Source: Planctomycetota bacterium (GTDB lineage: Bacteria; Planctomycetota; UBA1135; GCA-002686595). From it: 64,000 nt of DNA. Every line of letters begins with the position of its first letter. Position 1 is the stretch's first letter. A program made the position numbers and the translations under genes. The DNA lies in assembly GCA_020853575.1 (NCBI GenBank), contig JADYYP010000081.1, forward strand, positions 62,001 to 126,000, written 5' to 3'. Below are positions 36,881 to 51,933 of this stretch, piece by piece. The notes beneath the pieces are model-generated. The model worked only from the letters and a program-made list of their open reading frames with translations, did not search any database and was not told where the DNA came from.

Positions 36881-38626
36881 CTACGCCACCGGCACCGCGC
36901 CGACACGGAAGTCGTGGATCAACAGCTCCAGTGTCTTCTCGCCGCGGAACACGTTCCAGCGCGGCGTGTGCACCAAGTGCAACGGGAGACCTAGCGCCAA
37001 CTCCGATTGGCGCGCGGCCATCCCGAAAGCCAACGCCTTGAGCACGCGCTCACCGCGCCGCACGCGCAGGATCATGTGGGTGCGGTCCTCGCCGACGACA
37101 CGCGGCAGCTCGGCCAGTCGCACGTCGCTCGACATCAGCACGGGCTTCTCGTTCCGCTCGCCGAAGGGCTCGAGCGCGTCGATGTGGCGCATCAAGCGCT
37201 CGTCGATGTGCTCGAAGGAGAGCTCGCCGTCGATCCACAGCGGCTGCGCCGCGTGCTCGGACCCGGCGAGCAACTCGGTCGCCCGCGCGCAGATCGCATG
37301 GCGCGCCGCGTCGACGTGCTCGGCCAGGATCTCGCAACCCGCGGCCTGGGCGTGACCGCCGTAGCGCAAGAAGTACTCGCGTCCGCCGTGCAGCGCATCG
37401 AGCACGTCGAAACCGGCGACCGAGCGCGCGCTGCCGCGCCCGCGGTCACCCTCGAGACCGATCACCAGCGACGGCCGTTGAAAGCGCGTCGACACGCGCG
37501 CCGCGACGATGCCGACCACGCCCGGATGCCAACCTTGGCCCGCGAGCACCAGCACCGGATTCGCGCGCGGGTCGGCGAAGCGCGCCGCTTGCTCGAAGGC
37601 CTGGGCGCAGATCAGGGCCTCGACGCGCTTGCGCTCTTGATTCAAGGCCTCGAGCCCTTGGGCCAGCTCGCGCGCGCGCAGCGGATCGTCGCTGAGCAGG
37701 AGCTCGACGGCGCGCGCCGCCGTGTCCAAGCGACCCGCCGCGTTGAGCCGCGGGCCGATCTTGAAGCCCACGTCCTCGGCGAGCAACGGCTGGCCCGCCA
37801 GGCCACAGGCCGCGAGCAGGGCCTTGAGCCCGACGTTGGTCGTGCCTTCGAGCGCGCTCAGTCCGCGCCTCGCGAGCACGCGATTCTCTAGCACCAACGG
37901 GACCACGTCGCACACCGTCGCGATCGCCACGTAGGCCATGGCATCGCTGAGGAAGCGCTTCAGGTCGTCGCGTACGCGCCGCGCGCCGGAGATGCGCTGC
38001 GCGACACCCCAGGCGAGCTTGAAGGCGACGCCCGCACCGCACAGCTCGCGGAACGGGTAGCGCGAGCTGGCCAGCTTCGGATTGACGATCGCGACGGCCT
38101 CGGGCAGCGCGCCGAGCGGGGGCTCGTGGTGATCGGTCACGATGGTGTCGACGCCCGCGGCCGCGAGCTCGGCGATGGTCGCCGCCGCCGAGGTCCCGTT
38201 GTCGACGCTGATCACCAGCTTGGCGCCGCTCGAGCGCGCGCGCTCGACGGAGTGCGCGCCGAACGAATAGCCGTCGGTCAGGCGATGCGGGATGTGCCAC
38301 TGGGCGCGCGCGCCGAGCAGTTGGAACAGGCGCATCAAGAGCACCGTGCCCGTGACGCCGTCGACGTCGTAGTCGCCGTGCACCAAGATCGTCTCGCCGC
38401 GCTCGATCGCGAGCGCGATGCGCTCGGACGCGCGCTCCATCCCGGGCAATTCCGCTGGGTCGTGCAGCGCGTGCAAGCTGGCCTCGAGATGGCGCGTGGT
38501 GGCGTCGCCCGCGACGTGCCCGCGCGCGGCCAGAACCTGGGCCACGACCTCGGGCACTCCGTTGCGCCGCACCAGCTCGGCGACCACGCTCGAATCCGGG
38601 CGACGCAATTTCCAGGGACGACTCAC
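36881..38626 (-). CDS. recJ: Single-stranded-DNA-specific exonuclease RecJ
   Basis: A 581-residue DHH-family nuclease. Motifs are HGDYDVDGVTGT (the Asp cluster), SVDNGTSA, the DHH motif TDHHEPP, then LNAAGRLD and the DHHA1 part ending GGHAQAAGC, followed by an OB-like C-terminal domain. It degrades ssDNA 5' to 3' in recombination and mismatch repair. GTG at 38626 is preferred because homology begins just after it (SRPWKLRRP). It diverges from selA with 38 bp between the start codons. Confidence 0.95.
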   Translation of the reverse strand: MSRPWKLRRPDSSVVAELVRRNGVPEVVAQVLAARGHVAGDATTRHLEASLHALHDPAELPGMERASERIALAIERGETILVHGDYDVDGVTGTVLLMRLFQLLGARAQWHIPHRLTDGYSFGAHSVERARSSGAKLVISVDNGTSAAATIAELAAAGVDTIVTDHHEPPLGALPEAVAIVNPKLASSRYPFRELCGAGVAFKLAWGVAQRISGARRVRDDLKRFLSDAMAYVAIATVCDVVPLVLENRVLARRGLSALEGTTNVGLKALLAACGLAGQPLLAEDVGFKIGPRLNAAGRLDTAARAVELLLSDDPLRARELAQGLEALNQERKRVEALICAQAFEQAARFADPRANPVLVLAGQGWHPGVVGIVAARVSTRFQRPSLVIGLEGDRGRGSARSVAGFDVLDALHGGREYFLRYGGHAQAAGCEILAEHVDAARHAICARATELLAGSEHAAQPLWIDGELSFEHIDERLMRHIDALEPFGERNEKPVLMSSDVRLAELPRVVGEDRTHMILRVRRGERVLKALAFGMAARQSELALGLPLHLVHTPRWNVFRGEKTLELLIHDFRVGAVPVA

Positions 38627-38652
38627 GGCGGCGGATTCTACTGGTGGCGGCG

Positions 38653-38658
38653 TACACT
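38653..38658 (+). promoter_or_regulatory. -10-like TACACT, 6 nt before the selA ATG
   Basis: TACACT lies 6 nt upstream of ATG 38665 with no Shine-Dalgarno between, which predicts a leaderless selA mRNA. It sits in the 38 bp between the divergent recJ and selA starts. Confidence 0.5.
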
Positions 38659-38664
38659 GAGCGC

Positions 38665-40098
38665 ATGTCGTCGAAGACCGATCCGCGCGCTGAAGCATTC
38701 CGCTTGTTGCCCTCGGTCGAGGAAGTGCTGCACGATGCGGCGCTCGTGGAGCCGGCTGCGCGTGTTCCGCGGGAGCTGTGGGTCGGGTTCGTCCGCGACG
38801 TTTTGGAAGCCTGGCGAGGCGAGATCAAGGCCGGAACGCTCGACGCGACACGGCTCGGCCATCAGTTGGCGCGCGGCGAGCTCGCGGCGGCCCTGAGCGA
38901 ACGCGTGGAGCGCGAGCGCCGCGCCGGCATCGTGCGCGTCGTCAACGCCACCGGTGTCGTGTTGCACACGGGCTTGGGCCGCGCCCCGGTGCACGTCGAG
39001 GCCGCGGAGGCCATGGCGCGCGCGGCCAGCTCGTACTGCGTGCTCGAGGTCGACCGCGAGAGCGGGGAGCGCAACCAGCGCGACGAGCGCCTGTCGGCGT
39101 TGCTCCAACGCCTGACCGGGGCCGAGGCCGGCATCGTGGTCAACAACAACGCCGCCGCCGTGTACCTGTTGCTCAACACCTTCCTGGAGCGCGGGCGACG
39201 CGACGAAGTGATCGTCAGCCGCGGTGAGCTGGTCGAGATCGGCGGCTCGTTCCGCGTGCCCGACGTGATGGAACGCGCGGGCGTGGTGCTGCGGGAAGTC
39301 GGCACGACCAACCGCACGCGCATCGAGGACTACCGCTCGGCGATCGGCGAGCGCACCGCGCTGCTGATGAAGGTGCACACCTCGAATTTCCGCGTCCAGG
39401 GCTTCACGGAGGAGGTCGAGCCGCGCGCCTTGGCCGAGCTCGGCGCGCGCGCCAAGTTGCCCACGGCCTTCGACCTCGGCTCGGGCCTGCTCGAAGGCGA
39501 CGGGCTGGAGCCGCTCCCGGCGTCGATGCGCGAGGAGCCGCGCGTGCGCGACGCAGTCGAGTCCGGTGTCGACGTGGTCACGTTCTCCGGCGACAAGTTG
39601 CTGGGCGGGCCGCAGTCGGGCTTGCTCGTCGGCAAGCGCGCGACGATCACGGCCTTGCGCCGAAACCCGGTCTACCGCGCGCTGCGCCAAGACAAGGCGA
39701 CCATCGCGGGCCTGGAGCGCACGCTGGAGCTGTACCTCGCCGGGCGCGGCGACGAGATCCCCTCGCGTGCGATGCTGCGGGCCAGCGCCGCGGAGATGGA
39801 GACGCGCGCGCGCGAGCTCGCCAGCCGGCTCGCCAGCGTGGCTGATTGCGCGATCGAGGTCGTTGCCGAGCAGTCGCAGCCGGGAAGCGGCAGCGCTCCC
39901 GGAGTGTTCCTGCCGACGTTCGCGTTGCGCGTGACCCACGCGCGGGCGAGCGCGGCGCAGCTGGCGTTGGCCCTGCGCCGGGGAGAGCCGCCGGTGTTCG
40001 CGCGCGTGCAGGACGGCGCCGTGCTACTCGATCCGCGCACGCTGCTCGCGGGCGACGCCGAGCTGCTCGAGCGAGCACTGCGGGCAGCGGTGGTGTGA
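38665..40098 (+). CDS. selA: L-seryl-tRNA(Sec) selenium transferase
   Basis: A 477-residue PLP enzyme. NATGVVLHTGLGRAP marks the N-terminal part, and the PLP lysine is Lys311 in FSGDKLLGGPQSG. It converts seryl-tRNA(Sec) to selenocysteyl-tRNA(Sec) with selenophosphate. The presence of selD (44991) and tRNA-Sec (51274) in the same window supports an active selenocysteine system. ATG at 38665 is chosen over the upstream in-frame ATG at 38644 because TACACT would overlap the latter's coding region. The ABC exporter genes follow 31 bp later. Confidence 0.95.
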   Translation: MSSKTDPRAEAFRLLPSVEEVLHDAALVEPAARVPRELWVGFVRDVLEAWRGEIKAGTLDATRLGHQLARGELAAALSERVERERRAGIVRVVNATGVVLHTGLGRAPVHVEAAEAMARAASSYCVLEVDRESGERNQRDERLSALLQRLTGAEAGIVVNNNAAAVYLLLNTFLERGRRDEVIVSRGELVEIGGSFRVPDVMERAGVVLREVGTTNRTRIEDYRSAIGERTALLMKVHTSNFRVQGFTEEVEPRALAELGARAKLPTAFDLGSGLLEGDGLEPLPASMREEPRVRDAVESGVDVVTFSGDKLLGGPQSGLLVGKRATITALRRNPVYRALRQDKATIAGLERTLELYLAGRGDEIPSRAMLRASAAEMETRARELASRLASVADCAIEVVAEQSQPGSGSAPGVFLPTFALRVTHARASAAQLALALRRGEPPVFARVQDGAVLLDPRTLLAGDAELLERALRAAVV

Positions 40099-40129
40099 GC
40101 CCGCGCGTTCGCTCGAGATTCCGCGAAGG

Positions 40130-41101
40130 ATGTCGGCCGTCAGCGGCACGCAACGCCCGAGGATCGAACCCGTGATCGAAGTCGAGTCCCTGTCCAAGCG
40201 CTATGGCGAGACGCTGGCCGTCGAGCAGGTCTCGTTCACCGCGCAGCCCGGCCGGATTTTCGGCCTGCTCGGGCCCAACGGCGCCGGCAAGTCGACCACC
40301 ATCGGCTGCATCAGTGGGCTGCTCGCCCCGAGCGCGGGCCGCGTGCGCGTCCTCGGCTACGACGTGCAGCGCGAGGCGCGCGAGGCCAAGCGCTCGCTGG
40401 GAGTCGTCCCCCAGGAGTTGGCCCTGTACGACGACCTCGACGCGCGCGAGAACCTCGCGTACTGGGGCTCGCTCTACGGCTTGCGCGGCGCGACGCTGCG
40501 GGCGCGAGTCGACGACGTGCTCGAGGAGCTCGGACTCGCCGACCGCGCGAAGGAGCGTGTCGCGCACTTCAGCGGCGGCATGAAGCGACGGCTCAACTTC
40601 GGTTGCGCCGTGGTGCACACACCGCAGGCCTTGTTGCTCGACGAGCCGACCGTCGGCGTCGATCCGCAGTCGCGCGTGAAGCTGCTCGAGCTCGTCAAGC
40701 GGCGCGCGGCCGCGGGCGCCTGCGTGTTGTACACGACGCACTACATGGAGGAGGCCGAGGACCTGTGCGACGAGCTGGCGATCGTCGACCACGGCAAGGT
40801 CATCGCGGCCGGAAACCTGGCGACGCTGCGCGCTCGGCTGGGAGAGCGCGACGTGTTGCTCTTGGCGGGCACGTTCGTGCCCGAGCTCGTGCGAGGGGCG
40901 CTCGAGCCCCTGGGCGAGCTGGAGATCGTCGCGCTCGACGCGAGCTCGCTGACGCTCTCGGTCCGCGACGCCTCGCGGCGCTTGGCTTCGATCTTCGCCT
41001 GCCTCTCGAGCGCCGGGTGCGAGGTGCGCGAGACGAGCCTGCGCCAGCCGAGCCTGGAGAGCCTGTTCATCGCGTTGACCGGCAAGGAGCTGCGCGAGTG
41101 A
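40130..41101 (+). CDS. ABC exporter ATP-binding protein
   Basis: A 323-residue ABC ATPase of the drug/lipid exporter (ABC-2) type. Walker A is GPNGAGKST (about 50-58), the signature is HFSGGMKRRLN, and Walker B is ALLLDEPTVGVD; a C-terminal extension follows the nucleotide-binding domain. It powers the two permeases encoded next, the first of which overlaps it by 4 bp (GTGA). The start is uncertain: homology begins near IEVESLSKRYG, about 15 residues after the ATG at 40130. Substrate unknown. Confidence 0.9.
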   Translation: MSAVSGTQRPRIEPVIEVESLSKRYGETLAVEQVSFTAQPGRIFGLLGPNGAGKSTTIGCISGLLAPSAGRVRVLGYDVQREAREAKRSLGVVPQELALYDDLDARENLAYWGSLYGLRGATLRARVDDVLEELGLADRAKERVAHFSGGMKRRLNFGCAVVHTPQALLLDEPTVGVDPQSRVKLLELVKRRAAAGACVLYTTHYMEEAEDLCDELAIVDHGKVIAAGNLATLRARLGERDVLLLAGTFVPELVRGALEPLGELEIVALDASSLTLSVRDASRRLASIFACLSSAGCEVRETSLRQPSLESLFIALTGKELRE

Positions 41102-42360
41102 GCAGCGTGCTGGGGCCGATGATGCTGGCCGCGGCGCGCAAGGACCTGGTGCGGCGCTGGCGCGATCCGTGGGCACTCGCGATGTGGATCGGCATCCCGC
41201 TGGTGATCGGGGGCCTGATCGTGCTCGCGATGGGGGGGCGCGGCGGGCCCGCGCCGCGCGCGCACGTGTTCGTCGTCGACCGCGACGACAGCTTTCTCTC
41301 GCGCCTGCTGGTGAGCGCGCTGTCGAGCGAGCGCGCCAAGGTGATCGAGGCCGAAACGCTCGAGGAGAGCGTGGCGCGCGAACGCATGGATGCCGGCGAG
41401 GCCTCGGCGCTGCTGGTCATCCCCGAGGGCTTCGGCGAGGCCGTGCTCGAGGAGCGCGCGTCCACGCTCGAGCTCGTGACCAACCCCGCGCAGCGCATCT
41501 TGCCGGCGATTCCTCGGAGCGCGCTCGAGATCCTGTGCGAAGGCACGTTCTACCTGCAGCGCGTCGTCGGCGACGAGCTGAAGTCGATCGCCGCGGAGTT
41601 CACCGACGATGACGACGCGTTGACCGACCTGCGGATCGCCGAGGCCAGCGTGCGCATGCGCCACGGCATCGAGCGCGTCGCACCATTGCTCTTTCCGCCG
41701 GCGATCACGGTCGAGACCGTGATCCCTCCCGAGACTGGACCGGCGCACGGCGAGCGCTCGCTCGCCAGCCTGTACTTCCCCAGCATGCTGCTGATGGCCT
41801 TGATGTTCATCGCCGAGGGCCTGGCGGACGACGTGTGGCGCGAGCGCGAGCTCGGCGCGTTGCGGCGCATCGCCGTCGGGCCCAGCGGCGCGGTCCCGGC
41901 GCTGTTGGGGAAGGTGCTCGCGGGGTGGGTGTTGATGGCGGCCATCAGCGCGATCGCGCTTGCGATCGCGGTCGTGGTGTTCGACATCGCGCCGGCGCGC
42001 GTTCCGCTTGCGCTGCTGTGGTCGAGCTTCGCGGGCGCGGTGTTGTTCACCTTGATGGCGACGCTCAAGCTCATCGCCAGCACCCAGCGCGCGGCGGGGA
42101 TGCTGGGCAATTTGCTGCTCTTTCCGCTGTTGATGGTGGGCGGCTCGATGATCCCGTTCGAGGCCATGCCCGAGTGGCTGCGCGGCGTCGGGCGCTTCAC
42201 CCCCAACGGCTGGTCGATGGAGATCCTGAAGGGGCTGATTTACGGGGATCCGCGCCCGCTCGAGCTCGCGCTGGCGTTCGTCGGGCTGGGAGCGATCGGA
42301 ACCGCCTTGCTGGCGTGCGCCGCGCTGCGCATGCGCTCGTTCGCGCGAGGTGGCGCATGA
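41098..42360 (+). CDS. ABC-2 type exporter permease, first subunit
   Basis: A 420-residue protein. One N-terminal membrane segment (IGIPLVIGGLIVLAMGG) precedes a large extracytoplasmic domain (about 45-220) and five C-terminal membrane segments, as in YhfP/YbhS-type ABC-2 permeases. It includes FPLLMVGGSMIPFEAMPEWL near the end. GTG at 41098 overlaps the ATPase stop and the end overlaps the second permease. Together the three genes form one heteromeric exporter. Confidence 0.88.
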   Translation: MSSVLGPMMLAAARKDLVRRWRDPWALAMWIGIPLVIGGLIVLAMGGRGGPAPRAHVFVVDRDDSFLSRLLVSALSSERAKVIEAETLEESVARERMDAGEASALLVIPEGFGEAVLEERASTLELVTNPAQRILPAIPRSALEILCEGTFYLQRVVGDELKSIAAEFTDDDDALTDLRIAEASVRMRHGIERVAPLLFPPAITVETVIPPETGPAHGERSLASLYFPSMLLMALMFIAEGLADDVWRERELGALRRIAVGPSGAVPALLGKVLAGWVLMAAISAIALAIAVVVFDIAPARVPLALLWSSFAGAVLFTLMATLKLIASTQRAAGMLGNLLLFPLLMVGGSMIPFEAMPEWLRGVGRFTPNGWSMEILKGLIYGDPRPLELALAFVGLGAIGTALLACAALRMRSFARGGA

Positions 42361-43499
42361 TCCGCGATGTCCTGGTCGTCGCTCGCAACGACCTGCGGCG
42401 CGTGCTGCGCCAGCGCGAGACCTGGATCTGGACCTTCGCCATGCCGCTGGTGTTCTTCTACTTCTTCACCGCCATCCAGGGCGGATCGAGCGGCACCGAC
42501 CACCCCAAGGACCCACTGACGCTGGTCGTTCCGGACGCCGGCGGCGTGTTGGTCGACGAGCTCGAGCGGCGTCTCCAGGGCTTGGACTACGAGGTCGCGC
42601 GCGTGGCCGAGTTCGCGCCCGATGCTCCCCGACCCGCGCGCGTCGTCGAGGTGCCCGCCGGCTTCGACGCGGCCGTGCTGGCTGGCCGAGAGACCAGCGT
42701 GCGACTGTTGCGTCCCGAGGGCGGCAACGCGACCGAGCTCGACCGCTTCCGCGTTTCGCGCGCCGCGTTCGGGGTGTTGGCCGACGTCGTCACCAACGCC
42801 GCGCGCCGCCGCGAGCAAACGCCCGAGAGCTTCGCCGAGCTGGCGGCTTGGCCGCGCGCGCTGTCCCTCGACGTGCGCCCGGCCGGAACGCGCGTGCGCA
42901 TCCCCAGCGGAAAAGAGCAGTCGATTCCCGGCACGCTGGTGATGTTCACGCTGGTGTTGCTGCTCACCTCGGGTGCGATGGGCTCGTTGCTCGAGCGGCG
43001 CCAGGGTCTGACGCGTCGCTTGGCATCGGCGCCGCTCTCGCGCGGCGCGATCGTGCTCGGCAAATGGTGCGGCGTGTACGGGCTCGGACTGCTGCAGATC
43101 GCCTACGCGGCCGCCGCTGGCACGCTGTTCTTCGGGCTCGAGTGGGGGCCCGACGCCTGGGTCGTGGCGCTGGTGTTGTGCGCCTGGGCCGCCTTCGTGA
43201 GCTCGCTCGCGCTGTTGTTCGCCAATCTCGTCGCCACCGAAGGACAAGTGATCGGCCTGGGCGTGCTCGCTTCGAACCTGCTCGCGGCGCTCGGCGGATG
43301 TTGGTGGCCGATCGAGGTCACGCCGCGCTGGATGCAGGCCCTGGGCGGCCAGTTGCCGAGCGGAGCGACCATGAACGCGCTGCACCGGCTGATGATCTTC
43401 CAGTCCGGCCCGAGCAGCGCGCTGCCCGCGTTGGCCTACTTGACGTCGGGCGCGCTGCTGCTCGGATTCGTCGCCGCGCGCCGGTTTCGTTTCGCTTGA
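42357..43499 (+). CDS. ABC-2 type exporter permease, second subunit
   Basis: A 380-residue protein with the same architecture as the preceding permease: an N-terminal membrane segment (WTFAMPLVFFYFFTAI), an outside domain and a C-terminal membrane bundle including TLVMFTLVLLLTSGAMGSLL. The ATG at 42357 overlaps the previous stop (ATGA). It completes an exporter of the YbhFSR/linearmycin-type class. Nothing nearby fixes the substrate. The MATE transporter that follows 69 bp later may share the transcript or have its own promoter (TAGACT at 43505-43510). Confidence 0.88.
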   Translation: MIRDVLVVARNDLRRVLRQRETWIWTFAMPLVFFYFFTAIQGGSSGTDHPKDPLTLVVPDAGGVLVDELERRLQGLDYEVARVAEFAPDAPRPARVVEVPAGFDAAVLAGRETSVRLLRPEGGNATELDRFRVSRAAFGVLADVVTNAARRREQTPESFAELAAWPRALSLDVRPAGTRVRIPSGKEQSIPGTLVMFTLVLLLTSGAMGSLLERRQGLTRRLASAPLSRGAIVLGKWCGVYGLGLLQIAYAAAAGTLFFGLEWGPDAWVVALVLCAWAAFVSSLALLFANLVATEGQVIGLGVLASNLLAALGGCWWPIEVTPRWMQALGGQLPSGATMNALHRLMIFQSGPSSALPALAYLTSGALLLGFVAARRFRFA

Positions 43500-43568
43500 G
43501 CGAGCGTAGACTGCCGCGCCCTGCGCGCCGCACGCGCCAGCCCCAAGTCCCGCAGCGCCTGCGGCCCG

Positions 43569-44942
43569 ATGCATGCCATGCCGAGCTCCGTGAGGTCGGA
43601 AGCGCGCGAGCTCCTGCGGCTCGCGGTGCCGATCATGTTGACGCAGTTGTCGATGATGTCGCTGGGCGTCGTCGATCTGTTGATGGTCGGGCGGTTGGGG
43701 CGCGATGCGGTCGGCGCAGTGGCGCTGGGCAACATCGTCAAGGTCGGCACGGCGATGGTCGCGATGGGACTGGTGCTCGGCATCGACCCGTTCATCGCTC
43801 AGGCACACGGAGCGCGCGATGCACGCGCGGTCGCGCTCGCTCTGCAGCGCGGGATCGTGATCGCGGTGCTGGCGAGCTTGCCCGTCGCGCTGCTGTGGTT
43901 GTTCGCGGAGCCCTTGCTCGTGGCCAGCGGCCAGGATCCGGCGGTGTCGGCGGTGGCGCACGACTACGTGCTGGTGCAATTGCCGTCGATCCCGCTGTTC
44001 TTGGCCTACTCCGCCCTGCGCCAGTACCTGCAGGGCCGTGGAATCCTGCGGCCGGCGCTGCTCACCGCCTTGGGCGCCAACGTGCTCAACGTCGCGCTCA
44101 ATTGGATCTTCATCTGGGGGCACTTCGGCGCACCCGCGCTGGGCGCGGTTGGTTCCGGCGTCGCGACCAGCATCGTGCAGGCGGCGATGCCGGTGCTCCT
44201 GATCGCGCTGATCCGCGCCGGGAAGCTCCACGCCGGGGCCTGGGTGCCGTGGAGCGCTGCCGCGTTCGAGCCGCGCGCGCTGCTCGCGATCCTCAAGGTG
44301 GGCGCACCCCAGGGAGCGCATTTCGCGGCCGAAATCTGGGGCTTCCAGATCGCCGGACTGTGGGCCGGGATGCTCGGCACGGCGGAGCTCGCGGCCAACT
44401 CGATCGTGCTCAATCTCGCGTCGCTGTCGTTCATGCTGCCGCTCGGCGTCGGACTGGCCGCGGTGACGCGCGTCGGCAATTTGATGGGCGAGCGGCGCGC
44501 GCAGGACGCGCAGACCGCATCGTGGGCGGCGCTCGCACTGGGGGGCGCGCTGATGGCCGTGTGCGCCGTGCTGTTCTGGGTGCTGCGCGTCGAGCTGCCG
44601 AGCTGGTACACCAGCGACGAGGCCGTGATCGCGCTCGCGGCCGCGAGCATGCCCGTCGCCGCGGCATTCCAGCTCTTCGATGGCCTGCAGGTCGTCGCCA
44701 GTGGCGTGCTGCGTGCGATCGGCACCACGTTGCCGACGGCGATCGCGAATCTGCTGGGCTACTACGCGCTCGGCTTGCCCTTGGGGTGGTGGTTGACGTT
44801 CCGGCGCGACATGGGCTTGCCGGGCCTGTGGTGGGGCGTTGCGTTGGGCGTCGCGGCGGTCGCCGTCGCGCTGGTGGTGTGGATCGCGCTGCGCGGTCCG
44901 GCCAAGCACGCGGCGCTGCTCGACGCAGCGCGCGAGAGCTGA
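43569..44942 (+). CDS. MATE-family efflux transporter
   Basis: A 457-residue protein with about twelve membrane segments in two halves. The N-terminal half has LRLAVPIMLTQLSMMSLGVVDLLMVG and GIDPFIAQAHGARD; the C-terminal half starts near KVGAPQGAHFAAEIWGF. These are MATE (NorM-type) hallmarks of Na+- or H+-coupled drug or metabolite export. ATG at 43569 is used; another ATG lies three codons later. It lies between the ABC exporter genes and selD. Confidence 0.9.
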   Translation: MHAMPSSVRSEARELLRLAVPIMLTQLSMMSLGVVDLLMVGRLGRDAVGAVALGNIVKVGTAMVAMGLVLGIDPFIAQAHGARDARAVALALQRGIVIAVLASLPVALLWLFAEPLLVASGQDPAVSAVAHDYVLVQLPSIPLFLAYSALRQYLQGRGILRPALLTALGANVLNVALNWIFIWGHFGAPALGAVGSGVATSIVQAAMPVLLIALIRAGKLHAGAWVPWSAAAFEPRALLAILKVGAPQGAHFAAEIWGFQIAGLWAGMLGTAELAANSIVLNLASLSFMLPLGVGLAAVTRVGNLMGERRAQDAQTASWAALALGGALMAVCAVLFWVLRVELPSWYTSDEAVIALAAASMPVAAAFQLFDGLQVVASGVLRAIGTTLPTAIANLLGYYALGLPLGWWLTFRRDMGLPGLWWGVALGVAAVAVALVVWIALRGPAKHAALLDAARES

Positions 44943-44975
44943 GGCAGCGCGCGTCGACTGCTGCCGGGTCGAGGC

Positions 44976-44981
44976 TAAGAT
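44976..44981 (+). promoter_or_regulatory. -10-like TAAGAT, 9 nt before the selD ATG
   Basis: TAAGAT precedes ATG 44991 by 9 nt with no visible Shine-Dalgarno, so the leader would be about 2 nt. Consistent with the pattern before selA and yceH. Confidence 0.42.
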
Positions 44982-44990
44982 GCGCGCCGC

Positions 44991-46055
44991 ATGAGCGACC
45001 ATCCCCACAAGCGACTCGTCGACTTCGCCGACTGCGCGGGTTGAGCGGGCAAGTTGCCCCAAGGGCAACTCGCGCACGTGTTGCGCGGCCTCTCGACCTC
45101 CAGCGACGAGCGATTGCTCGTTGGACCCCAGACCATGGACGACGCCGGTGTCGTGCTGCTGGGGCAGGGAGAGGGTCTGCCCGCGGGCGTTTCGCTGGCG
45201 CTGGTGCAGACGGTCGACTTCTTTCCGCCGGTGGTCGACGACCCCTATTGGTACGGCGCGATCGCGGCTGCCAACGCGCTCTCCGACGTGTACGCGATGG
45301 GCGGTCGACCGGTCAGCGCGCTGGTGTTGGCTTCGTTGCCCAAGGACTGCCCGAGCGAGTGGATCGCCGAGATCCACCGCGGCGCATTCGACAAGGCGCG
45401 CGAGGCCGGTGCGTGCATCGCCGGCGGCCACACCGTGCAGGGCCAGTTGCAGTTCGGTCTGGCGGTGACGGGCGTGGTCGATCCCGCGCGCATGACCGCG
45501 AACAGCGGCGCGCGCGCCGGAGACCTCGCGTACCTGACCAAGCCGCTCGGCATGGGGACGATGACGACCGCCGCGAAGGGCCAGAAGATCGAGTGGAGCG
45601 CGATGCTGCCGGCGGTCGAGCAGATGGCGCTGCTCAACGCGGCCGCAGCCGAGGCGATGCTCGCGGCGGGCGCGCGCGCCTGCACCGACATCACGGGCTT
45701 CGGGTTGGTCGGCCACGGGCGCAACGTCGCAGTGGCGAGTGGCGTCACGCTCGAGATCGAGAGCGCGCGCGTGCCGCTGTTTCCTGGGGTGCTCGAGCTC
45801 GCCGTTCGCGGACTGAACTCCGGCGGCGCGAAGCGCGGGCGCGCGGGGCTGAAGGACGAAGTGCGCGTCGTGGGCGCGCTCGCCGAGCCGTTGCTCAACC
45901 TGCTGTTCGACGCCGAGACCTCCGGTGGATTGTTGATCGTCGTCTCACCCCAACAGGCGCCGGTGCTCGAGCGCGAGCTCGCGGCTCGCAAGCTGCCGTG
46001 CCAGCGGATCGGGCGCTTCAAGCCCAGTTCGGGCGTCGCGGTCGAGATCGTGTGA
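44991..46055 (+). CDS. selD: Selenophosphate synthetase, itself a selenoprotein (Sec18)
   Basis: A 354-residue protein including selenocysteine. ATG at 44991 opens a frame that meets TGA at codon 18 (45042-45044) and continues without interruption to 46055. The context, Cys-Ala-Gly-Sec-Ala-Gly-Lys-Leu, is the SelD active-site loop, where other SelDs carry Cys or Sec followed by the ATP-contact Lys. The remainder has VQTVDFFPP, the family's conserved DDPYWYGAIAAANALSDVYA region and GGHTVQ. SelD makes selenophosphate from selenide and ATP. A strong hairpin directly follows the TGA. Calling the gene from the second codon block alone would lose the catalytic residue. Confidence 0.93.
45045..45073 (+). 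promoter_or_regulatory. Bacterial-type SECIS hairpin in selD
   Basis: Directly after the UGA, AGTTGCCC (45052-45059) pairs perfectly with GGGCAACT (45063-45070) around a CAA loop; outer GCG (45045-45047) and CGC (45071-45073) can close a lower stem. The loop begins 16 nt after the UGA, within the range usual for bacterial SECIS elements that bind SelB. Confidence 0.8.
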
Positions 46056-46063
46056 CGTCGCGC

Positions 46064-46894
46064 TCAGCGCGCCAGCCGCCAGACGATCGGGACCTCGACG
46101 ATCGAGGCGCACGCTCGACCCCCGACGCGGGCCGCGAAGAAGCTCCAGCCTCGCACGGCCTCGAGCGCCGCCGCGTCGAGCACGTCGAACCCCGACGAAG
46201 TGACCAGCGTCACGTCCTCGACGCTGCCGTCCGCGCGCACGCGCACCGACAGCACGCACGTACCCTCCCAACCGCGGGCGCGTGCGGAGCGCGGATAGGG
46301 CGGAGCTGGATTGGTCGCGTAATCGGGCCGAGCGGCGCTCGCGGGTGCCGCGGGTTGGGTCGCGGCATCGTCCGGTGCCGCCGCGGGCGCGTCGAAAGCT
46401 GCGGGCGCCTCGTTTCGCGCGCTTCGTTCGGCGCGTGCCGCCTGCCGTCGCGCCTGGGCGCGCGAGGCGAACTCCCACGGCAGCCGCGGGAGCTCATCGG
46501 TGACGAGCCTGGGCGCGCCTGCGGCGAGGGAGCGGACCTCGGGCGGCTCTGCGGGCTCGGGGAATTCCTGTTCCACCAGTCGCGGCTCGTCGCTGGGCTC
46601 CGCGCTCGGGGTCACGTCGCGTTCGCGCTCTTGCTCGTGCTCGTGCGGCTCCGCTGCATCGAACCGCGGCGCGCGCTCGGCATAGGCGAGCTCACGGCAC
46701 TCGAAGGTCAGCGCGCGCTCCGCGGGAGCCGCTGCGCGAGCGAGCTCCCAGGCGGCATAGGCCGTCGCGACCGTCATGTGGGCCAAGAGCGACGCCGTGA
46801 GGATGCGCGAGAAGCGCGTGTCCGTGCCAGCGGCGGGCGCGGCGAGCCGCAGCGCGAGCGCGCGCCGCGCCATGGATCTCGCCGCGTGGCGCAT
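46064..46894 (-). CDS. tonB: TonB energy-transducing protein
   Basis: A 276-residue protein. A single membrane anchor lies at about 30-50 (LTASLLAHMTVATAYAAWEL), then a long Glu/Pro/Ala-rich periplasmic spacer, and a C-terminal TonB domain from about residue 195 (PPYPRSARARGWEGT, SVRVRADGSVEDV, ALEAVRGWSF). It transmits inner-membrane proton-motive energy to outer-membrane receptors. The ATG at 46894 shares one base with the receptor stop (TGATG), so the pair is coupled. ExbB/ExbD are not in the window. Confidence 0.87.
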   Translation of the reverse strand: MRHAARSMARRALALRLAAPAAGTDTRFSRILTASLLAHMTVATAYAAWELARAAAPAERALTFECRELAYAERAPRFDAAEPHEHEQERERDVTPSAEPSDEPRLVEQEFPEPAEPPEVRSLAAGAPRLVTDELPRLPWEFASRAQARRQAARAERSARNEAPAAFDAPAAAPDDAATQPAAPASAARPDYATNPAPPYPRSARARGWEGTCVLSVRVRADGSVEDVTLVTSSGFDVLDAAALEAVRGWSFFAARVGGRACASIVEVPIVWRLAR

Positions 46895-48897
46895 CACCAG
46901 CTGGCTTCGATGCCCAAGCGCAGCGTTCGGCGCTCGGCGGGATGGAAGTGCACGTCGCTCACCGGGGCGGGCTCGCCCTGGAGTTGCGAGTCGTAGAGGT
47001 ACTCGATGTCGTTGGCGCGCTCGTCGAAGAGGTTGAACACGCCCAACTCGACGCTCCAGCGTTGATCCACGCGCCAACCGAGCGCGAAGTTCACCAGCGT
47101 CGACTCGCTCGAGCGCTCGCTGGCGTCCTCGATCAGGTCGCGCGGGCCGAAATGGCGTGCGCGCAGCGCGCAGGAGAGGCTCTCGCGAGGCATCCAGGTC
47201 AGGCCCGCGGAGAGCACCGTGCGCAGCGCGCCCGGAACGTGGTCTCCCGCGGGATCGCTGTCGCGGAAGCGCGCGCGCGACCAGGCAGCGTCGAAGTCGA
47301 TCACCCAGCGCTCGCCCAAGCTCCAGTCGTTGGTCCACTCCACGCCGAAGCGCCGGCTCGGACGGCTGGGCTCGGTGGTGCCGGCGTCGCCGACGAACAC
47401 GATCTCGCTGTCGCTGTCGAGCAACCACACCGAGAAGCTGCTCTCCAAACCCTCCACCACGGACGAGCGCAGGCCGAGCTCCGCGCCCTCGGTGCGCACC
47501 AGTGGATCGACCGGTGCGACGGCGTTGGCGCTCACGGGGTCGATGGTGGTCGTGACGCCGCGCGCGTCGTTGGAGTGGAACCCCTGACCGGCGTTCAGGT
47601 ACAGCTCGCTCTGGGCCCACGGGCCGAAGATCAAGGAGAGCTTCGCGCTGGCGATCTGCTCCGAGGCCTCGCCGCTGTTGGCGATGTCGTCGCTGTCGAC
47701 GTCGAACTCGAAGGCGTCGCCGCGCAGGCCGGCCACGGTGCGGAACCAGCCGTTCCATTCGAGCTCGTTCTGGTACCACGCGCCCACGGAGAGCTCGTCG
47801 ATCTGGTCCTCGCGCGTCTTCGAGAGCAGCGCGCGCGCCTTGGTCTTCGACAGGCCGTTGTCGATGTGGTCCTCGCGCAGTTGCAACCCGAAGGAGTGTT
47901 CCATGGGACGCCCGGCGAAGCTCGCGGGCAGCTCGTGGCGCGCGTCCAGCCCGTAGGTGTTGCGCTCGTCGAGCTGAGCGAACTGATCGCCGTTGACCGG
48001 ATCGTCGAGGAAATAGCTGAAGTTCGAGTACAGCTCGAGGTCGCTGTGGCGCGCGAAGCCGGTGATCTTGGAGCTGGAGTCGGCCGTGGCGTGGTGCCAC
48101 TCGCCGATGGCGGAAATCTGGCTCGCCGCGCCGCCATCGGTCGGATCGACCGCGTCGTAGCGATTGAGCAGATTGGAGGCCACCGCGCGCGAGGGAATCT
48201 GGTCGGTCGCGTTCCACTGGCTGTCCATGCCGACCAGCGCGACGCTCAGCCCCTCGCTCTCGCTCCCGCGGCTCCACTTCGCCATTCCGTTGAAGCGCCG
48301 TAGGTCGTCGGGGTTGGTCCACGGCCCGTCGTGCTGGAACACGTCGAAGGCCACCAGCAACTGACCCTCGGCGAAGGGGTGCGAGTCGGCGACGAAGCCG
48401 CGCGCGTAGTCGTCGGCGCCGAACTGTCCGCGCAGGATCGGGCGCTCGAGCGCGTCGACATAGGTGATCTCGACCGCGCCCGCGGAGCCGAAATCTCCGA
48501 CGTCCGCGAAGTACGGGCCCTTGCGGAAGCTGACGCGCTCGACGAGCTCCGGCATCAAGAAGTTGAGGTCGGTGTAGCCCTGACCGTGGCCGTGCGAAGG
48601 GAGGTTGAGCGGCGTGCCCTCGAACGACACGCTCAGATCGGTGCCGTGGTCGAGGTTGAAGCCGCGCAGGAAGTACTGGTTGGCTTTGCCCGCGCCCGAG
48701 TGCTGGGTGACGATCAGACCCGGGACGCATTCGAGCAGCTCCGCGGTTCGCGACAGCGGCCGCACCGCGAGCTGCGCCGCATCGACCGCGCCCTGGGTCG
48801 CGGAATCGACCAGCCCGATCCAACTGTCCGCGCGGCCGACGATCACGACTTCGTCGAGGCGCGGGGTCGTGGCTTGGCTCTCCTGCATCATGCTCAT
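46894..48897 (-). CDS. TonB-dependent outer-membrane receptor
   Basis: A 667-residue receptor. LDEVVIVGR at 14-22 is a TonB-box-like start. The plug domain follows (RTAELLECVPGLIVTQHSGAG, LRGFNLDHGTDLSVSFEG), then a long beta-barrel ending in RLGIEASW with an aromatic terminus. HGHGQGY in the plug is His/Gly-rich. It imports a siderophore, metal complex or glycan through the outer membrane. No signal peptide is visible at the chosen ATG, and upstream in-frame sequence offers none. Cotranscribed with tonB. Confidence 0.88.
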   Translation of the reverse strand: MSMMQESQATTPRLDEVVIVGRADSWIGLVDSATQGAVDAAQLAVRPLSRTAELLECVPGLIVTQHSGAGKANQYFLRGFNLDHGTDLSVSFEGTPLNLPSHGHGQGYTDLNFLMPELVERVSFRKGPYFADVGDFGSAGAVEITYVDALERPILRGQFGADDYARGFVADSHPFAEGQLLVAFDVFQHDGPWTNPDDLRRFNGMAKWSRGSESEGLSVALVGMDSQWNATDQIPSRAVASNLLNRYDAVDPTDGGAASQISAIGEWHHATADSSSKITGFARHSDLELYSNFSYFLDDPVNGDQFAQLDERNTYGLDARHELPASFAGRPMEHSFGLQLREDHIDNGLSKTKARALLSKTREDQIDELSVGAWYQNELEWNGWFRTVAGLRGDAFEFDVDSDDIANSGEASEQIASAKLSLIFGPWAQSELYLNAGQGFHSNDARGVTTTIDPVSANAVAPVDPLVRTEGAELGLRSSVVEGLESSFSVWLLDSDSEIVFVGDAGTTEPSRPSRRFGVEWTNDWSLGERWVIDFDAAWSRARFRDSDPAGDHVPGALRTVLSAGLTWMPRESLSCALRARHFGPRDLIEDASERSSESTLVNFALGWRVDQRWSVELGVFNLFDERANDIEYLYDSQLQGEPAPVSDVHFHPAERRTLRLGIEASW

Positions 48898-48951
48898 GGC
48901 GCGTGCTCGTTCGTTGTGGTTTACGCTCGCGCCGCGGGCTTGGATGCACGC

Positions 48952-49614
48952 TCACGAGCGCTGGAGTTCGCGTTTGACTTTCAACCAGGCCAGCCAGCAG
49001 AACACGCACAGCCCGGCGATGCTCGCCAGCAGGACCCAAGGGTTGGTGAGCATGGCCTCGAATTGCGCGCCGAGGAAGGCCGCGACCGCCGCGTAGGTCA
49101 CCACGGCGAGCGCGGCGCCGATCAGCACGGCGACCAAGGTGGCGATGCGGCTGAGGCCGACCAACTGACCGACCAGCGTGCCGGTGACCGCGCCGGAACC
49201 TGGGATCGGCAGGAACACCAGCACCGCGATGCCCGAGAAGGCCAGCCGGCGCAGTCCGGGGTACTCGCGCAGCGTGTTGCCCGCGCGCAGGTGCGCCTCC
49301 GCCAAGGCCTTGCCCGCGAGCGGCAAGCGCTTGAAGCTCGAAATCCCGAGCAGCAGCGCGCACGTGACCCAGGCGTCGAGCACCCAGGCGATCAGTCCGA
49401 GCTCCCAGGGGTTGAAGCGGTACTGCTCGATGTTGCCGCCGAAGATCGCGAGCTTGCTGAAGAACACGGCCGTGGCGGCGAGCATCAGTGGGCCGATGCC
49501 GCCGAGTCCGCTCTCGATCACGTACAGGACCACGGCGGCGAGCGTCGTCGTCGCCACGCCGAGGACCGCGTAGCGCAGGCGCTGCGCGTCGAGATCGAGT
49601 TCGCGGGCGTCCAT
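48952..49614 (-). CDS. Small-multidrug-export family membrane protein
   Basis: A 220-residue protein with about five membrane segments. The loop GIAVLVFLPIPGSGAVTGTLVGQL matches the conserved proline-glycine re-entrant region of the Sm_multidrug_ex (PF06695-type, DedA-related) family. Its transport activity is poorly established. The start may be ATG at 49614 or 49626 (four residues longer). It ends 54 bp before the TonB receptor start and may be cotranscribed. Confidence 0.78.
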   Translation of the reverse strand: MDARELDLDAQRLRYAVLGVATTTLAAVVLYVIESGLGGIGPLMLAATAVFFSKLAIFGGNIEQYRFNPWELGLIAWVLDAWVTCALLLGISSFKRLPLAGKALAEAHLRAGNTLREYPGLRRLAFSGIAVLVFLPIPGSGAVTGTLVGQLVGLSRIATLVAVLIGAALAVVTYAAVAAFLGAQFEAMLTNPWVLLASIAGLCVFCWLAWLKVKRELQRS

Positions 49615-49719
49615 CGAGCTCGCCATCTTCGCGCGGCGCCGCGCGCGCGTCCATGCCGAGCGTGCGCCGCCAGGACCCGCGCTTGACCGCGCTCGCGCGC
49701 ACGGAATCATGCTTCTCCC

Positions 49720-51219
49720 GTGGAGCGCAGGCGCATCGATTCGATCGGCGAGAACGGCGAGCTCGCGCCCGGGCCGCCGTGGATCTTCGGATGGCGCGGA
49801 GCGCCGCGCGAGGCTCCGGAGAATTCGCTGGCGAGCCTCGAACGCGCCGTCGGGCTGGGACTCGACGGCGTGGCCTACGACGTGCGCGCGTGCGCCGGCG
49901 GCGAGCTCGTGTTGCTGGCGGACGCGACGCTCGACCGCACCACCGACGGAAGCGGCGCGCTCGCGGCGCACTCGCCGACGGAGTTGCACGAGCTCGACGC
50001 CGGCAGTTGGTTCAGCGCCGAATTCTCGGGCGAGCCGCTGGCCTGGCTCGACAGCGCGCTGGCGCTGCGCGGCAACGCGGCCGGCACGCACCCGCAACAC
50101 CTGATCGAGCTGCGCGAGCCCGAGCTCCTGCCCGCGCTGGCGGCGAAACTGGCCGAGCGCGGGCAGCGACTCTCGGTGCGCGTCGCGACGACGCGGCGCT
50201 CGGTTGCGCTCGAGGCGCGCGATCTCGGGCTGGCGCCGCTGCTCGGGCTCGAGCGCCCGACCGAGCGCGACCGCGCCTTCGCGCGCGACGAAGCGCTGAT
50301 GGCCATCGGCGCGCGCTTCCAGGACTGGCGACTCGCAGGGCCCACGCCCTGGGATTGCGAGCGCTTCTGCTTCGACGTCGACGACCCGCACGAGCTGCTC
50401 GCGGCCTGCCGCACGCCGTTCAACGCGCTGACCACCACCGAGCCGCGGCGAGCGCTGGCGATCCGCGCGCTGGTCCACCTCGCGCCCGAGGATCGCGGCG
50501 GCTATCCGGTCCGCGTGGGCGAGCTCGCGATCGGTGCCCAGACGCACTTGGCCAGCCAGGGCGAGTGGTGCGGCGTGTGGCAGGTCGAGCTCGAGCTGCG
50601 CAATCCGTTCGCCTTCGAGGTAGCGGTCGAGCTCTCGCTGGTGGTGCGGCGCGGAGCCTTCGATGCGCCCGCGTTGCCGCAGCAGGCGCGACTGGGTCCC
50701 GGGGAGAGCGTGCGCCGCACCTTCGACTTGAGCGGCGGCTCGTGGTCGCCCGGCGGCGATCCGTTGCTCGCGGCGCGCTTCGCTCTGCCCGAGGCCGACG
50801 GCGGCGCGCGGCCGTTCTTGGTGCTCGACGCGCCTTTGGTGCGCCGCCGCAGCGTGCGCTTGCTCGATCGCGCGCTGCGCCTGCCGCTGTTGCGCGAGAC
50901 GCCGCGCGAGCCGGCCGCTTCGGTCACGGTGCGCCGCCACCGGCGCGACCTGCTGGCTGCGCTCGAGAACCCTGGCGACTTGACCGACGCGCGCGTTCTG
51001 GTTCACCTCGACGGGCGGCGTTGGACCGGCGCGCGGGGCCTGCGGCTGGCGCTGCCCGAGGACATCGACACGCGGCCGGGTGGCGTGCCGTTCTCGGTCG
51101 GGATCGTCGGCTGGCGCGCGACCCCGCGCGGTCCGCGGAGCGTCGTTCGGCGCTGGTCGGGGGGGCTGCCGGACACGCTCGCCGCGGGCGAGCCCGGGCG
51201 GCTGCTCGGGACGAGTTGA
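49720..51219 (+). CDS. GDPD-like protein lacking catalytic residues, fused to a C-terminal beta domain
   Basis: A 499-residue protein. Residues 21-250 follow the glycerophosphodiester phosphodiesterase barrel (PENSLASLERAVGLGLDG and LDRTTDGSGAL are clear). The catalytic positions are changed: the HRG histidine is Trp25, the Glu of ExD is Ala52 with Asp54 kept, and the HD histidine is Ala67. Residues 260-499 form an Arg/Leu-rich beta-domain of unknown type. It is probably a non-catalytic binding protein or has a new activity. No signal peptide. The start is GTG at 49720. The tRNA-Sec gene follows 54 bp later. Confidence 0.7.
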   Translation: MERRRIDSIGENGELAPGPPWIFGWRGAPREAPENSLASLERAVGLGLDGVAYDVRACAGGELVLLADATLDRTTDGSGALAAHSPTELHELDAGSWFSAEFSGEPLAWLDSALALRGNAAGTHPQHLIELREPELLPALAAKLAERGQRLSVRVATTRRSVALEARDLGLAPLLGLERPTERDRAFARDEALMAIGARFQDWRLAGPTPWDCERFCFDVDDPHELLAACRTPFNALTTTEPRRALAIRALVHLAPEDRGGYPVRVGELAIGAQTHLASQGEWCGVWQVELELRNPFAFEVAVELSLVVRRGAFDAPALPQQARLGPGESVRRTFDLSGGSWSPGGDPLLAARFALPEADGGARPFLVLDAPLVRRRSVRLLDRALRLPLLRETPREPAASVTVRRHRRDLLAALENPGDLTDARVLVHLDGRRWTGARGLRLALPEDIDTRPGGVPFSVGIVGWRATPRGPRSVVRRWSGGLPDTLAAGEPGRLLGTS

Positions 51220-51273
51220 GCTAGCCCGTTGCGCTCCAGTGCCGCGCCTGTTGGAGTGGCGCGCCACGACAGC

Positions 51274-51371
51274 GGGAGCGGATCGGTGCTGGTGTGCCGC
51301 CCGGTCTTCAAAGCCGGTCGAACCTCGTGAACAGCGGGGTTGGTGGGTTCGATTCCCATGCGCTCCCGCCA
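51274..51371 (+). tRNA. selC: tRNA-Sec (anticodon TCA)
   Basis: A 98-nt tRNA with CCA encoded. The acceptor GGGAGCG pairs with CGCTCCC, the discriminator is G, the D stem is 6 bp (CGGTGC/GTGCCG) with a TGGT loop, the anticodon loop is CTTCAAA with TCA at 51308-51310, the variable arm is 7 bp (AACCTCG/CGGGGTT), and the T arm is GTGGG/CCCAT. The long D stem and long variable arm identify tRNA-Sec. The eighth acceptor pair would be G opposite G, a mismatch where bacterial tRNA-Sec usually pairs. Confidence 0.95.
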
Positions 51372-51387
51372 ACACCATCGCCCCGTC

Positions 51388-51933
51388 ATGCCGCGCGCCG
51401 CCCAGCGTTTCTGGTTGCTCAAGTCCGAGCCCGAGGTGCTCGCGTTCGACGATCTGTGGGCCGCGCCGGGGCGCCGCACGATGTGGGACGGAGTGCGCAA
51501 CTACCAGGCGCGCAACTTCCTGCGGGACTCGCTGGCGCTCGGTGACCAGGTGCTCTTCTACCACTCGAACGCCGAGCCCACGGGCGTCGCCGGCATCGCC
51601 GAGGTCGCCAGCGGTCCCTATCCGGACCCGACGCAGTTCGACACGCGCCATTCGGGATTCGACCCCAAGAGCACACGCGAGAATCCCACTTGGTTCGCGC
51701 TCGACATCGTCGCGCTGCGAGCCCTGGAGCGCGTGGTCACTCTCGACGAGCTCAAGCGCAACCCGCGCCTCGCCAAGATGGTTCTGGTGCAGCGCGGCAG
51801 TCGACTTTCCGTGCAGCCCGTGACGCGCGAGGAGTTCGGCGAGGTCCTGCGCATGGCCGCGGCCGAGGCCCCGCGCTCCGCGGCGAACGGCTCGAGCGCG
51901 CCGGCCAAAAAGCACGCGAAACGGGCCCGCTGA
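51388..51933 (+). CDS. EVE-domain protein
   Basis: A 181-residue protein. FWLLKSEPEVLAFDDL, MWDGVRNYQARNFL and GDQVLFYHSN are the hallmarks of the EVE domain (thymocyte nuclear protein 1-like), a PUA-related fold that binds modified bases in nucleic acids. The tail is Lys/Ala-rich. ATG at 51388 starts 16 bp after the tRNA-Sec CCA end, so the two may share a transcript. A good terminator follows. Its target is unknown. Confidence 0.9.
   Translation: MPRAAQRFWLLKSEPEVLAFDDLWAAPGRRTMWDGVRNYQARNFLRDSLALGDQVLFYHSNAEPTGVAGIAEVASGPYPDPTQFDTRHSGFDPKSTRENPTWFALDIVALRALERVVTLDELKRNPRLAKMVLVQRGSRLSVQPVTREEFGEVLRMAAAEAPRSAANGSSAPAKKHAKRAR

Follow-up and report, generated by a model that had tools for sequence, protein, structure and literature searches.

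SelD (selenide, water dikinase) containing selenocysteine (Sec), hereafter Sec-SelD, ranks second among bacterial selenoproteins in breadth of distribution (PMC13188914, PMC5029168). It has been recorded in 383 organisms (PMC5029168), and in a reference set of 223 genomes 19% of the SelD genes are of this type (PMC4561486). Planctomycetes with full Sec machinery and selenoproteins have also been published: PMC4807772 describes full Sec machinery and 2-selenouridine synthase in the Porphyra-associated strains P1 and P2. Here we describe the selD gene of a 64,000-nucleotide stretch of DNA (the window) from a Planctomycetota bacterium (contig JADYYP010000081.1). An earlier reading of this DNA (the original prediction) had proposed that selD is itself a selenoprotein gene, with an in-frame UGA at the active site followed by a hairpin resembling a Sec insertion sequence (SECIS). 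It had also stated, correctly, that Sec-SelD is known in other bacteria, and had placed the novelty in the lineage, where it is slight in view of the planctomycete strains above. It is very probable that the selD product is a Sec-containing selenophosphate synthetase, and that SelB and a SECIS, most likely at 45070-45088, decode UGA codon 18 as Sec.

The selD gene (44991-46055, forward strand) starts with the ATG at 44991, and its frame ends at the TGA stop at 46053-46055. When the in-frame TGA at codon 18 (45042-45044, forward strand) was translated as Sec, a protein of 354 residues including Sec18 was obtained, which matched the TIGR00476 (selD) profile with 318.6 bits, above the curated cut-off of 125, and both the AIRS and AIRS_C domains of Pfam. 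The frame thus runs on to a full-length SelD, as had been claimed. In the alignment with E. coli SelD (3u0o; E = 7.6e-58), Sec18 fell on Cys17 and Lys21 on Lys20. The TGA was therefore located exactly at the catalytic position, as anticipated, and the product has the catalytic Cys or Sec followed three residues on by Lys that is expected of a SelD. Without recoding, the longest open reading frame given by mechanical calling starts at TTG 45054 and encodes 333 amino acids, with the active site missing. The expectation that automated annotation would truncate selD was therefore correct, and the gene model is hereby corrected.

Relatives belonging to the same genus, family or order (n = 60) were searched, and the SelD codon was readable in 58 of them; G021, with no SelD match, and G026, with a weak match only, were left out of the count. 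TGA occupied the Sec position in 56 of the 58, TGT in G052 and TGC in G038. A bacterial selenoprotein gene is recognized by an in-frame UGA that aligns with Cys in its homologues and is retained among its relatives. Because TGA is found in 56 relatives and a Cys codon in the other two, the UGA of selD is, as judged by sequence comparison, a genuine Sec codon, neither an error nor the sign of a pseudogene, and selD is thus a gene for a selenoprotein, with Sec in place of the catalytic Cys. Were the TGA a true stop or a sequencing mistake, leaving either a pseudogene or a 333-residue protein, this would agree with the TTG start given by mechanical calling; however, the short form would be without the catalytic residue, and 56 of the 58 relatives, instead of a plain stop and a shorter SelD, have the TGA at one codon, always the Cys position, with conserved SelD protein on both sides. 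This conservation refutes such an explanation in practice, and we consider it highly improbable. Among 78 further SelD genes, taken from other genomes, Sec was present in 65 and Cys in 13, a ratio that is no census, the genes having been chosen by similarity to the window SelD.

The two Cys-codon genes, of G052 (L049) and G038 (L068), were the sole ones in the sampled planctomycete order, in which Sec-SelD is nearly universal. G052 still has selB, and because it sits among Sec-bearing relatives of its own family, its SelD probably represents a Sec-to-Cys change. The active-site loop Cys-Ala-Gly-Sec-Ala-Gly had been called unusual. When it was aligned with related SelD sequences, CAGUAAK was the rule in the family and CAGUAGK the rule in the genus; CAGUAGK was seen again in Phycisphaerae and Chloroflexi, and many phyla had CAGUASK. 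As far as these alignments go, CAGU-A-[AGS]-K is common in the Sec-SelD of several phyla, and the loop in the window is an ordinary one.

All of selA, selB and selC were found in the genome. In the window, selA (38665-40098, forward strand; L-seryl-tRNA(Sec) selenium transferase) matched TIGR00474 with 509.8 bits and PF03841 with 429.7 bits, its start codon being uncertain, and selC (51274-51367, forward strand), a tRNA-Sec with the anticodon UCA, matched Rfam RF01852 with 71 bits and was called tRNA-SeC (tca) by ARAGORN. The selB gene, the absence of which would have spoken against Sec use, is present on the same contig approximately 65 kb past the window (TIGR00475, 338.5 bits; cut-off, 242), and the SelB C-terminal domain was detected in 56 of the 60 relatives. 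Together with the conserved UGA and the full-length SelD, this machinery supports the proposal that selD is itself a selenoprotein gene. It also argues against general suppression or code reassignment, by which the UGA would be read as some other amino acid. Since selD itself ends in UGA, as does the upstream MATE gene, UGA is not a reassigned sense codon; nothing was found in favor of this explanation, which is extremely improbable.

Outside the window, at least four more genes of the genome carried an in-frame TGA in place of a catalytic Cys codon: one for a peroxiredoxin (STPGU) and three for thioredoxin-like proteins (WUPPC, WUGPC and WUGPC), at L167 (G000:C62:23524-23895), L168 (G000:C76:3347-3700), L169 (G000:C82:57864-58208) and L170 (G000:C35:88443-88934). 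To judge by these genes, UGA seems to be recoded generally in this genome. A hairpin was predicted downstream of the TGA in each of the four. The absence of any FdhA above the curated cut-off in the genome of the window (assembly 92.5% complete), together with the presence of mnmH, had raised the idea that SelD is the sole selenoprotein and that the Sec system is kept for selenouridine; this was rejected in view of the four thioredoxin-fold genes. FdhA with a single in-frame TGA was observed in two congeners and in G010 (G003:C97, G004:C45 and G010:C59), and a recent loss or an assembly gap is possible in the present genome. No Sec-containing formylmethanofuran dehydrogenase, of the kind described in another planctomycete, turned up in a search for it. 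A codon-usage scan of the window for further UGA-interrupted genes gave nothing useful; it missed selD as well, and its result is therefore no evidence of absence.

Two hairpins follow the UGA of selD on the forward strand. The first, H1 (45052-45070), is the one noticed in the original prediction; its perfect 8-bp stem (45052-45059/45063-45070) and the distance of 16 nt from the UGA to the first base of its triloop CAA (45060-45062) were confirmed, and it is the most stable hairpin following the UGA (-11.4 kcal/mol). The second, H2 (45070-45088), has a 7-bp stem (45070-45076/45082-45088) and the loop CGUGU (45077-45081). The rules for bacterial SECIS elements (bSECIS; PMC13188914) call for a stem of 4-16 bp, a loop of 3-9 nt with G in one of its first two positions, a spacing of 16-37 nt and an energy of -7.5 or lower. 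H2 satisfied these rules (7 bp, CGUGU, 32 nt from the UGA, -9.2 kcal/mol), whereas H1 failed on its loop CAA and on its spacing, 15 nt lying in between. A rule-abiding hairpin follows 13.8% of the 1015 TGA triplets in the window, and a hairpin alone is therefore weak evidence for a SECIS. Single-sequence folding z-scores were too weak to choose between H1 and H2. With a genome rich in G+C, the stability of a hairpin close behind a UGA thus says little, and comparison decides.

In the family alignment (A3), which comprised 32 distinct sequences not selected for pairing, 99.1% of the H2 cells were paired and three pairs were doubly changed; none of 500 shuffles reached any of the measures. Compensatory changes included Ala to Thr (GCG to ACG) with CGC to CGT, and Arg to Gly (CGC to GGC) with GCG to GCC. 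A further alignment, A4, had pairing at 45070-45088 as its selection criterion, so that its counts illustrate covariation only. In contrast, 85.2% of the H1 cells were paired, and 16 of the 32 family sequences were unpaired at one central pair (columns 19-33). Consensus folding of A3 retained H2 whole and two pairs only of H1. When the protein was held fixed, synonymous codons were redrawn and folding was scored in 94 windows along selD, the H2 windows gave the strongest signal of the 94 (mean z, -2.3), followed by the H1 windows (about -1.1). An H2-type hairpin recurs in the Sec-SelD of other phyla: at least 6 of the 7 pairs were present in 26 of the 65 Sec-SelD and in none of the 13 Cys-SelD genes from other genomes, a contrast part of which may stem from differences in protein motifs. 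The family consensus GCAGGU-CUGC resembles the core of the E. coli fdhF SECIS.

Two observations weigh against H2. In the sequence of the window itself H2 is not stronger than in codon shuffles (p about 0.3), so that its support comes from comparison, and H1 also has some double changes and is perfect in the genus. The possibility that H1, or a composite of both hairpins, constitutes the SECIS draws further on the stability of H1, on a C-G to U-A double change seen in the window species and elsewhere, on five doubly changed cells compared with 0.9 in shuffles (above any of the 500), on its codon-choice signal, which is present though weak (mean z, -1.5), and on the more proximal position of the SelD SECIS in other phyla. 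Mispairing in half of the family makes this possibility unlikely. Conservation and covariation thus suggest that H2, not H1, is most likely the SECIS. H1, which is strong in the genus and not conserved across the family, would be auxiliary or incidental; because it is perfect in the genus, it may have a helper role in Sec insertion. The SECIS call accordingly moves from the conspicuous hairpin to its conserved neighbor, which lies partly outside the interval originally proposed.

From the gene, its conserved UGA, the Sec machinery and the conserved, covarying hairpin, we infer Sec insertion, a catalytic role of Sec18 and a feedback loop as follows. On the selD mRNA, SelB carrying Sec-tRNA-Sec would bind the SECIS hairpin, which is most likely 45070-45088, and UGA codon 18 would be decoded as Sec. 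Sec18, together with Lys21, would then produce selenophosphate from selenide and ATP, and this would be supplied to SelA for more Sec-tRNA-Sec and to MnmH for 2-selenouridine in tRNA. The synthesis of SelD would in this way depend on its own product.

The position of the SECIS was surveyed by taking, for each Sec-SelD, the best hairpin that fitted the loop and spacing rules, with the energy limit relaxed to -5. The loop centers clustered near 18, 21, 28 and 34 nt past the UGA in 15, 11, 10 and 67 of 107 genes, respectively, the family of the window being heavily sampled among them. Within the order, the loop center was at 34 nt in the family of the window and at 28 nt in others. Rule-abiding hairpins were thus observed at discrete distances by lineage, as if the SECIS register had changed (Sec-SelD loci L044-L151 and the family of the window), and part of this discreteness may reflect protein motifs that favor palindromic codons. 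It is conceivable, if quite unlikely, that the SECIS of Sec-SelD shifts among a few discrete positions as lineages diverge, even in this order, and that in the genus of the window two adjoining hairpins act jointly, tuning Sec insertion into SelD as a sensor of selenophosphate supply. With the discrete positions, a natural series is at hand in which the reach of SelB from its hairpin to the decoding site can be studied.

In the window, recJ, selA, ABC transporter genes, the MATE gene, selD, a glycerophosphodiesterase-like gene, tRNA-Sec and an EVE-domain-like gene are clustered at 36881-51933, the names glycerophosphodiesterase-like and EVE-like being putative and our own reading of these genes. 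The genes recJ, selA, MATE and selD occurred together in several relatives. Much of this gene order recurred in G010 (L172), where tRNA-Sec follows the glycerophosphodiesterase-like gene as it does in the window.

Compared with strains P1 and P2, as described in PMC4807772, the genome of the window has in common the phylum, the full Sec machinery and 2-selenouridine synthase (mnmH); the strains differ. Against the bSECIS consensus (PMC13188914), H2 fits in stem, loop G, spacing and energy, its loop being CGUGU and its spacing near the long end. On these comparisons, the selD of the window is a secure further Sec-SelD, of a kind well known in bacteria, with a corrected SECIS. It is like the known bacterial Sec-SelD genes in the position of the UGA, in the SelD fold and in the bSECIS lying inside the coding sequence, and differs in lineage and exact sequence only, the SECIS loop at 32-33 nt past the UGA being one of several positions seen.
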